A stretch of DNA of 64,000 nt from Chlorobaculum parvum NCIB 8327 (GTDB lineage Bacteria > Bacteroidota > Chlorobiia > Chlorobiales > Chlorobiaceae), in NCBI RefSeq assembly GCF_000020505.1, contig NC_011027.1, positions 1,224,001 through 1,288,000 on the forward strand. Reading direction: 5' to 3'. Below the pieces are notes generated by a model, which made no database searches, was not told the origin of the DNA, and was given only the letters and a program-made list of their open reading frames with translations. Shown here one piece after another: positions 35,436-38,409 of this stretch; the stretch's first letter is position 1; every line of letters begins with the position of its first letter. Position numbers and translations under genes: made by a program.

Positions 35436-36113
35436 CTATCCACTCTTCCATCCCCCATACACCACGAACCGCGCTCGTGAATACCGGCAACGCACCTCGC
35501 GGAATCCCGCCTCTTCGAGCCATCGCAACTGATCGGCAAGCGTAGTATTCCTGTCGGCGCGCATTCGTGCCTTCGCAGCTTCAATCGCTTCGGCAGTCGC
35601 GCCATTGGCTGCGACATCGGCGAGCCACTGGCGTTCGTAGTCCGCCTCTTCTTCCGGCGTTGTGCCGAGCGCCTGGTCGGCGTTGATGAACATGCCATCG
35701 GGGCGCAAAGCACGGAATATCTTGCCAAAAAGCTCGCGCTTGCTTTCATCTTCGAGATGGTGAATCGACAGAGCGGACATCACCAGATCGAACGCAGATT
35801 CGTCGATGAGTGCGAGATGCTCCTGCACGGCAAAGCTGACCTGTGAATTTCCGGCGAACCGTTGACGCGCCACGCCGAGCATCGCTTCCGAAATGTCCGT
35901 AAGATGCAACAAGGCATTCGGATGCGCCTCTGCTACCATCGCAGCAAAAAGACCTGTGCCCGAGCCGAGATCGAGCACGCGGAGCAGCGCATCGGACGGA
36001 AACGGAATCATCCACATAGCTGCGCCGTAAAACTGGTCAAAGCAGGGCACGAGTTTGGGGCGGTCACGGTCGTATCCTGTCGCGCAACGGTCAAACAAGG
36101 CGGCAATGTTCAT
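35436..36113 (-). CDS. Class I SAM-dependent methyltransferase
   Basis: A 225-residue protein from ATG 36113 (MNIAALFDRC). The frame is open to a GTG at 36161, but that segment comes from the 45-bp repeat shared with the antiporter gene. SAM motifs are VLDLGSGTGLFAAMVAEAHP (about 46-65), DISEAMLGVARQR, FDLVMSALSIHHL and LRPDGMFINADQAL. The N-terminal RCATGYDRDRPKLVPCFDQFY is typical of small-molecule methyltransferases. The substrate is unknown. It was probably next to the antiporter before a 1.2-kb insertion. Confidence 0.85.
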   Translation of the reverse strand: MNIAALFDRCATGYDRDRPKLVPCFDQFYGAAMWMIPFPSDALLRVLDLGSGTGLFAAMVAEAHPNALLHLTDISEAMLGVARQRFAGNSQVSFAVQEHLALIDESAFDLVMSALSIHHLEDESKRELFGKIFRALRPDGMFINADQALGTTPEEEADYERQWLADVAANGATAEAIEAAKARMRADRNTTLADQLRWLEEAGFREVRCRYSRARFVVYGGWKSG

Positions 36114-36157: not shown

Positions 36158-36202
36158 TCACCGGCTGAAAAAGAAAAGCGTCATCACATACACGGAGTAC
36201 AT
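36158..36202. repeat. 45-bp perfect direct repeat, left copy
   Basis: Identical over 45 bases to 37393-37437. The right copy is the 3' end of the antiporter gene, with 14 codons plus stop; this copy lies at the 5' side of the methyltransferase gene, 1,235 bp away. It bounds the AT-rich islet with the lipoprotein gene and looks like a duplicated target or attachment core. Confidence 0.95.
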
Positions 36203-36316
36203 TATAACGTCACCAAATCCGTATTTCATTGCTAAGCTTATTTGTACAGCGCCACATATATCTAAAAAACACACGGCACAATCGCGAGATAAAAAGCCTG
36301 TTTTCTGCAAATGCAA

Positions 36317-36356
36317 AATAGGCTGCCCTGAAATCTTGCCTCCAAGACAGCCTATT
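36317..36356 (-). terminator. Hairpin after the lipoprotein gene
   Basis: AATAGGCTG (36317-36325) pairs with CAGCCTATT (36348-36356). On the minus strand TTTT follows. It lies about 28 bp past the lipoprotein stop at 36384. Confidence 0.65.
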
Positions 36357-36383
36357 CTATTAAGAATTTACAGAACCTGAGTC

Positions 36384-37034
36384 TCAGTTCCTCTGTCTTT
36401 TATAGGGAAAATCTTTTGAAATTCCCTTCATCAAAGATTTCGCAAGCCTCTCAGGAGAACTACCTACACTACCGGATGCTTCGTGATCATATTTCCAGAG
36501 TAAATCATTTGATTTCTCACCATAGAGATTCAAGGAAACATCAACTTTATTGGTTGATCCCCAATAACCAACCAAAATACCTAATACTGCTGCCCCAGTT
36601 CCCGACATTGGCTTTGTACGCTTGATCGTACCGGATATCACCGCATCAACACCGAGTTTTCTTGCAAGGTCTGATTTTGTATAATTCATTATATTTTCAT
36701 AGGTAATACCACCTTTACGCAAAAGGAAGTTCGTGTATTCGACATCCTGAAAATCAACTGTATACCTACCTTTTGACTGCTGTTTGAGGAACTGAGCGTA
36801 AATCTGCTGCTGGAATAAATACCCTTCATCCTTTTCGGCTTTTCTTGCCATTTCAACAGTAAAATCCTTCGATTGATTTTTTGAATCAATGTTTACAGTA
36901 AATGGGAGAATAGCTACTTTCCGATGAGATTTCGTAACATCAGAAAATTCAGGTTTTGTGTAAATGGTTGGTGATGCGCAACCAACAAATACAAAAATAG
37001 CTAGGAATGAGAAGATGCGAAGATATTTAAACAT
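36384..37034 (-). CDS. Lipoprotein of unknown function in the islet
   Basis: A 216-residue protein with a lipoprotein signal: a hydrophobic leader FSFLAIFVFVGC with the lipidated Cys at about residue 19. The mature part has KVAILPFTVNIDSKN, reminiscent of lipoproteins of the LpoB/CsgG-like kind, and GVDAVISGTIKRTKP. Its base composition is AT-rich and unlike the flanking genes, fitting recent acquisition. ATG 37034 is used. A hairpin follows. Function unknown. Confidence 0.75.
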   Translation of the reverse strand: MFKYLRIFSFLAIFVFVGCASPTIYTKPEFSDVTKSHRKVAILPFTVNIDSKNQSKDFTVEMARKAEKDEGYLFQQQIYAQFLKQQSKGRYTVDFQDVEYTNFLLRKGGITYENIMNYTKSDLARKLGVDAVISGTIKRTKPMSGTGAAVLGILVGYWGSTNKVDVSLNLYGEKSNDLLWKYDHEASGSVGSSPERLAKSLMKGISKDFPYKRQRN

Positions 37035-37392
37035 ATTGTCGCTTTTGAGGTTGATTAAGAAAAACTAATTAATATAAAAGTGTAATAAAGCAAAGCAGAT
37101 CAAGTATGATAAATTTATTAAAAATAGTTAGCACTATTTGACACGCTCTATCATCTAAAACAATGTGAAATACTGTACTCAAAACTCATAAACGCTTACC
37201 AGATTTTGCTGTTCGAAAGTATAGGAGTAGAGGCTAGTTAAACCGCCTTTAAAGTATCTCATTTATACACAAAAAACAACCTCTTAATACTACAAAACAG
37301 CAATTGTACATCATCGAACAGACTAGATATAACAATAGACATTCTCGGATATTCCGGATCAAATCAGAACCAAATGAGCAGCTTCCTGCCCT
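37035..37392. other. AT-rich upstream region of the islet lipoprotein gene
   Basis: No credible gene in 358 bases; many stops in all frames. It must contain the promoter for the lipoprotein gene (minus strand). No terminal inverted repeat pairs with the left end of the islet at 36203. Confidence 0.5.
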
Positions 37393-37437
37393 TCACCGGC
37401 TGAAAAAGAAAAGCGTCATCACATACACGGAGTACAT
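37393..37437. repeat. 45-bp perfect direct repeat, right copy
   Basis: It is the last 14 codons plus stop of the antiporter gene (reading MYSVYVMTLFFFSR on the minus strand). It is identical to 36158-36202. Confidence 0.95.
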
Positions 37438-38323
37438 CAGCACCAGAAGCACCCCCTGCCTGCGGCGCACCAGCCTGGTATTGCGCTGCGGAAGGGCGAT
37501 CAGGAGCGACAGGACACCGAAAAAAAGCGCGGGAGCGACTTCCGGGAGCGGAACTTTAATCGGTTTGATGATAGCCGCAATGGGAACAATAAAAAAGGCT
37601 GTTGAAGATGTTGCTGCCAAGAACCGTTCCGACGCCGATTTCATCGTGCCCTTTTATTTTTGCCAGTACGGTCGAGGCGAGTTCAGGCACGGATGTTCCG
37701 AACGCTACAAGCGTCGCGCCGATGATGAAGTCGTCGATCGCAAAATCCCTGGCGATGCCGGCCGTGGAAACGACAATCAGCCGCCCGGCAACGACAAGCA
37801 GAATCAGCCCCCCGACCCCCTGAAGCAAGGGCACGAGCCTGTCGACTGTCCTTACCCTACCACCAGCTGGAGCCCTTTCTTTAAGGGCCTGTTTCAGCGT
37901 TGTTGCCATCCACGCGCCGAAAAAGACGAGCATGAACAGACCTTCGAGCCGATCGATGATGTTGTCAATGAGAAAAATTGCGATCAGCAAGGGCACCAGA
38001 ATAGCCACCGGTGCATCGCGTTTCAAGACCTCTTTGCTGACCGGAATCCCGGAGATGAGCAGCGTAAAACCCAGGACAAGCGAGATGTTGACGATGTTGC
38101 TGCCGAGTGCGTCACCGAGAGAGAGCTGGGACTTCCCGGCCAGCCCAGAGTTGATTGCAACAGAAAGCTCCGGACTGGATGTCGCAAATGCCGCAATGGT
38201 GACCGCAATAACTGATGGTGCAATACGCAGGACGGAGGCGATACCGACCGTACCCCGGACAAACAGCTCTCCGCCGAATCCAGCGCACGCGATACCGGTC
38301 AGTAGAAGAACATAATCATTCAT
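37393..38323 (-). pseudogene. CaCA-family Na+/Ca2+ antiporter gene with a one-base frameshift
   Basis: ATG 38323 (AGAGGT ribosome site) begins a CaCA exchanger. The two alpha-repeats are ATSSPELSVAINSGLAGKSQ...GDALGSNIVN and GTSVPELASTVLAKI...GTVLGSNIFN. Directly after the second, a run of six T (minus strand; A6 at 37591-37596) shifts the frame. Deleting one base joins NSLF to IVPIAAIIKPIKVPLPEV and gives 309 residues with about ten membrane spans. The cause may be mutation, a sequencing error in the homopolymer, phase variation or frameshifting. The 3' end is shared with the islet repeat. Confidence 0.85.
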
Positions 38324-38409
38324 CAGGGGCACCTCTGAAAATGTCATGAGCAACGCAGGTGAAAGCAGAAAAAGCGCCACTCAGCCATAACAAGGCGTGG
38401 GCGATAAGG

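Follow-up and report, generated by a model that had tools for sequence, protein, structure and literature searches.

An AT-rich lipoprotein islet between two copies of an antiporter gene end in Chlorobaculum parvum, apparently captured without an integrase

The genome of Chlorobaculum parvum NCIB 8327 (G000) is a single contig of 2,289,249 bp. The window considered here is the whole stretch of 64,000 nucleotides that was analyzed, and it contains a Na+/Ca2+-exchanger-type antiporter gene, a methyltransferase gene and, between them, a short AT-rich islet with a gene for a lipoprotein. The features of this locus are as follows, in window positions.

35436..36113, minus strand: gene for a SAM-dependent methyltransferase (Methyltransf_25), the ancestral downstream neighbour of the antiporter gene; likely start ATG 36113
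36158..36202, minus strand: copy 2 of a 45-bp repeat, followed by the native junction of antiporter and methyltransferase, which is that of the relative G012 (GTGACGGA...)
36203..37392, no strand: AT-rich islet with a G+C of 0.36; not found in the 85 other Chlorobiaceae genomes searched, where the only matches fall in the lipoprotein gene
36315..36358, minus strand: strong terminator-like hairpin of 19 bp, T-rich on its 3' side, following the lipoprotein gene
36384..37034, minus strand: lipoprotein gene, 216 aa, lipobox FVGC
37393..37437, minus strand: copy 1 of the 45-bp repeat, comprising the final 14 codons of the antiporter frame and the stop codon, and continuing into islet DNA (AGGGCAGG...)
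37556..38380, minus strand: antiporter ORF of the Na+/Ca2+-exchanger family (PF01699), frameshifted near 37593-37598; the remaining C-terminal frame reaches 37393

The G+C content of the islet is 0.363, compared with 0.554 for the 64-kb window, and only 0.4% of 1,187-bp stretches were found to be as AT-rich when 1.25 Mb of the C. parvum genome was surveyed. The islet contains one ORF, that of the lipoprotein, in agreement with the initial annotation of this DNA, which had described an islet with no visible integrase. The hairpin behind the lipoprotein gene is probably the gene's own terminator; no attC core was recognized there on inspection by eye, the hairpin being terminator-like, and an Rfam search of the islet returned one match only, at chance level. 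On the minus strand, the junction between islet and core creates a promoter-like TATAAT ahead of the methyltransferase gene (36201-36229). This motif (36201) was not retained as a promoter, its frequency being within chance expectation.

The two copies of the repeat, at 36158-36202 and 37393-37437, are perfect, direct 45-bp copies of TCACCGGCTGAAAAAGAAAAGCGTCATCACATACACGGAGTACAT, spaced 1,235 bp start to start, and extension by 3 bp gives an identity of 47/48. In the whole 64-kb window, this pair is the sole perfect direct repeat of at least 16 bp with copies 60 bp to 20 kb apart, and is far beyond chance. The initial description of a perfect 45-bp direct repeat bracketing an AT-rich lipoprotein islet was therefore confirmed for both copies and for their spacing, and the refuting condition that the repeat might be an assembly artefact was not borne out. 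Read on the minus strand, the repeat corresponds to the last 14 codons of the antiporter frame and its TGA (M Y S V Y V M T L F F F S R stop). That it is the end of the antiporter, as had been claimed, holds for this frame but not for the gene as assembled. Compared with G012 and other relatives, the antiporter as sequenced shows a frameshift at a T run near 37593-37598. Its ORF therefore ends at 37556, lacking the last ~55 residues, and the duplicated tail is read in a different frame from the remainder of the gene. This frameshift may be real or may be a sequencing error.

Related genomes provided an empty site. In G012, the closest relative searched, the antiporter is 91% identical, and contig C110 overlaps at its end with the beginning of contig C29 by ~300 bp, which gives the order antiporter, GGTGACGG, methyltransferase, with a single tail. 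The same order, also with a single tail, was found on one contig in G002. The proposed comparison with relatives thus yielded two genomes in which antiporter and methyltransferase are adjacent, and the adverse outcome envisaged with it, that all relatives carry the islet and the repeat, was not observed. Within the window, the methyltransferase-side copy of the repeat continues into the native junction GGTGACGGA, the same as in G012, and therefore marks the original site. Among 86 Chlorobiaceae genomes, the islet was found nowhere beyond C. parvum; three other matches all lie within the lipoprotein gene, and in no relative does the lipoprotein gene stand beside the antiporter. Judged by these sequence comparisons, the islet is a real, recent insertion of foreign DNA with a duplicated gene 3' end.

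Between sister species, the cargo of the antiporter site was also found to differ, as read from their assemblies. In G014, three AT-rich lipoprotein-type genes and no methyltransferase gene follow the antiporter tail (L204, contig C92, reverse complement 1365-2750), and G010 carries a two-gene insert with a methyltransferase remnant at the same site (L205, contig C59, reverse complement 1251-1999), the insert resembling a HEPN/MNT-type nucleotidyltransferase toxin-antitoxin pair. Genomes combining the antiporter with other cargo therefore exist. Methyltransferase remnants lie behind the antiporter in G015 and G009, both genes are decayed in G003, and the methyltransferase gene is absent from the antiporter site in G016. 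A similarity noticed by eye between the first bases of the islet and the antiporter flanks of methyltransferase-lacking sister species (GGGC.GGGAA) was not convincing: it was the best of seven comparisons, and 4% of controls (sequences behind other TGA stops) scored as well.

The lipoprotein is 53% identical to a protein of a Chlorobiaceae MAG (G027; L076 and L081). Two intact copies and one remnant of the gene were found among the Chlorobiaceae, and more distant homologues were detected in further families of the same phylum. In G022, only a C-terminal scrap of the lipoprotein is present, beside what reads as an IS3-type transposase. In G027, ~150 bp behind the lipoprotein homologue, a frameshifted C-terminal fossil reads like an integron-type integrase (L076 6060-6215). 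The lipoprotein passes no family cut-off in Pfam or NCBIfam, has no match in plasmid collections, phage collections or viral contigs, or in a sequence search of solved structures, and gave nothing credible in PADLOC and PHROGs. Its AlphaFold model, of low confidence (pLDDT 64), was found to be similar to GNA1162, PelC, LpoB and CT253, which are mostly envelope lipoproteins. On this low-confidence model, the protein may be an outer-membrane-type lipoprotein resembling those of the envelope, and its role is presumably that of ordinary envelope cargo.

Comparable brackets were sought in 1.248 Mb of the C. parvum genome (600001-1848000, 55% of the total) as repeats of 25-250 nt with at least 80% identity, 0.3-5 kb apart. 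The scan returned 11 direct pairs versus 0 inverted pairs under the same settings. When repeats inside genes are set aside, AT-rich DNA lies within three of the brackets, although stretches with a G+C of at most 0.415 make up only ~2% of the scanned sequence. One is the antiporter islet, with a bracket identity of 100%; the other two are as follows, in genome positions.

940934-941725, with brackets 940794-941865 (L130 16794-17865): AT-rich islet with a BrnT/CopG-type toxin-antitoxin pair, both Pfam matches being under the curated cut-off; bracketed by a 140-bp (84%) duplicate of the 3' end of a leucine-rich-repeat (LRR) gene
1369189-1370741, with brackets 1369106-1370824 (L090 1106-2824): AT-rich islet with an outer-membrane beta-barrel (OMP) gene; bracketed by an 83-bp (90%) duplicate of the 5' part of an EEP-family gene

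Both of these islets correspond to a single-copy site in G012. The LRR islet is also present in G010, and in G014 the islet and the LRR gene are on different contigs. For the EEP islet, G003 has an empty site as well, and G002 has the OMP gene downstream of the EEP gene. Since the OMP gene lies on either side of the EEP gene among relatives, the EEP islet is less clear, and from its gene order could be a decayed tandem duplication and not an insertion. The same process was considered for the antiporter locus, where a larger duplicated segment would have lost everything except the 45-bp antiporter tail, and no foreign DNA would have entered. The 11:0 ratio of direct to inverted repeats in the scan would agree with this, as would the EEP/OMP islet. 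The two tail copies, however, are 100% identical while nothing more of a presumed second antiporter survives, the lipoprotein gene is found beside the antiporter in no relative, and the G+C content of 0.36 together with the distant homologues points to a foreign source. Duplication followed by decay is accordingly a highly unlikely origin of the lipoprotein islet.

Integrative elements and prophages can use gene 3' ends as attB, and the C. parvum islet is like them in having a duplicated tail that restores the gene end. The initial annotation had leaned towards such an element. The islet would then be a non-autonomous integrative element that entered at a 45-bp core at the antiporter 3' end by means of a tyrosine or serine integrase, either acting in trans from a helper phage or plasmid or since lost. 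The core is perfect and coincides exactly with the gene 3' end, the direct repeats flank the insert as attL and attR would, the tail is restored and the empty site in relatives is precise; in addition, the G027 relative of the lipoprotein adjoins the putative frameshifted integron-type integrase fossil. The islet differs from known elements of this kind in that no integrase, attP-bearing form or second use of the core was found. No integrase is encoded in the islet, and the tyrosine recombinases found by sequence in the C. parvum genome are only XerC and XerD. A search for the core elsewhere, which had been proposed as a check, was negative: no third copy was detected in the C. parvum genome (up to 3 mismatches over 30 bp) or in 2.9 million viral contigs (exact 30-mer search), and the surroundings of the antiporter in ten relatives (4.5-20 kb) contain neither a second core-like sequence nor an XerC/D-like ORF near the antiporter tail. 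The core was likewise not found in use by an integrase-bearing element in the viral contigs or the ten relatives. Moreover, the two other islets are bracketed by sequences unrelated to the core, one of them a gene 5' region, which argues against integration at an attachment core. These results thus uphold an insertion that duplicated the 3' end of a gene, but do not support the action of a recombinase at an attachment core, whether supplied in cis or in trans, and site-specific integration appears quite unlikely.

At the LRR islet, the outer copy of the bracket carries the native terminator hairpin, of the type GGGGAAGAG...CTCTTCCCC, which is that of G012, G014, G002, G003 and G016, and the gene-side copy carries one of the type GGGATAACGG...CCGTTATCCC, otherwise seen in G010, the holder of the same islet. 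This arrangement is predicted by one-ended homologous capture, in which the gene-side copy brings the downstream sequence of the donor and the resident tail is pushed outward. An alternative that requires neither donor homology nor an islet-specific enzyme is a staggered double-strand break with ~45-nt overhangs, or a template switch by the polymerase, in which a foreign fragment is captured and filling-in duplicates 45 bp. Such break repair or template switching would yield a clean target duplication exactly as present in the sequence. It leaves the different terminators on the two LRR copies unexplained, however, and no Ku was found in the C. parvum genome; we regard it as unlikely.

On balance, the favoured and moderately likely origin of the lipoprotein islet is a capture of foreign DNA, either by single crossover or facilitated by homology, in which the anchor was duplicated. 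From the insertion with its tail duplication we infer one-ended recombination, on the grounds that no tyrosine recombinase other than XerC and XerD was found, that the brackets of the other islets are unrelated and that the terminators at one islet fit. In this route, the incoming DNA would have carried an antiporter gene 3' end and, behind it, an AT-rich stretch containing the lipoprotein gene. Only at its antiporter end would this DNA have recombined homologously with the resident tail, and the other end would have been joined illegitimately; otherwise, the fragment would have been circularized and have entered by one crossover. The resident tail would have been kept as a second copy before the methyltransferase gene, giving the order antiporter-tail, islet, tail-methyltransferase. 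Because either route keeps the resident tail as a duplicate, the 45-bp repeat would be a scar and not a recombinase site. The foreign DNA may have been acquired by natural transformation, for which Chlorobaculum tepidum is competent (PMC3842273).

The arrangement found agrees with such a capture, in that the insert lies beside the anchor gene and the end of this gene is duplicated on both sides. As to donor DNA carrying an anchor end together with cargo, sister species carry other cargo at the antiporter, and the LRR copies show two terminator types; a donor with the C. parvum islet next to the antiporter was not found. Since the two 45-bp copies are identical, donor and resident copies are indistinguishable. 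At 45 bp, the repeat only slightly exceeds the RecA threshold of ~30 bp given for E. coli (PMC2884548).

Several known systems are comparable. In E. coli, re-circularized linear DNA entering by a single crossover produced lacZ duplications in 56/60 clones, the duplications being 109-950 bp in the 14 that were sequenced (PMC3240628). Homology-facilitated illegitimate recombination has been invoked for small variable segments in bacteria, 10-18% of which are flanked by direct repeats (PMC2884548), and also for immunity-gene arrays in Vibrio (PMC5361080). As in homology-facilitated and single-crossover capture (PMC3240628; PMC2884548), integrase-free foreign DNA lies beside a homologous anchor gene in C. 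parvum, and, as in the single-crossover form (PMC3240628), the insert is flanked on both sides by a duplicated part of that gene. The C. parvum islet differs in being a natural, fixed insertion with a duplication of 45 bp, compared with 109-950 bp, and in that no donor was found. It shares with the small variable segments, or microdiversity loci (PMC2884548), short, integrase-free variable DNA with direct repeats between conserved genes. The repeats there are mostly shorter than 30 bp and have been read mainly as deletion sites, whereas the C. parvum repeat is a perfect one of 45 bp and the mark of a gain. In the immunity-gene arrays behind T6SS effectors of Vibrio cholerae (PMC5361080), a one-ended homologous capture is likewise proposed to shift resident sequence behind the cargo; unlike these, the C. 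parvum islet has no toxin-immunity module, and only a 14-codon tail is left. Rather than a new mobile element, the islet looks like the product of an event of a known kind, a capture that is ordinary, if rather rare, and involves no integrase. It provides a recent natural example, with its empty site, of a single foreign gene entering a chromosome without mobile-element machinery.

A broader reading is that single-gene envelope or toxin-antitoxin islets come and go repeatedly in green sulfur bacteria with no integrase involved, each capture duplicating 45-140 bp of a neighbouring gene and later recombination between the duplicated pieces cleanly restoring the empty site. With three cases in 55% of one genome, such recurrent, reversible gain through anchor-duplicated islets is suggested but not established, and we consider the generalization possible, if doubtful. 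If the pattern held across the Chlorobiaceae, a group naturally transformable in the laboratory, the brackets of 100%, 90% and 84% identity would form a graded series for studying integrase-free gain and clean loss.

Two minor observations concern the scanned genome. The repeat pairs at 718156 and 1700937 were rejected as islets, neither being AT-rich and the latter lying inside a TPR-like repeat gene. In addition, a dispersed palindromic repeat of ~30 bp, GTAGGGGCGAACCTGTGTGTTCGCCC, occurs at 941610-941639 and, for example, at 480519, 486221, 764528, 808297, 1209553 and 1720380, and is common to many Chlorobaculum genomes and G038.
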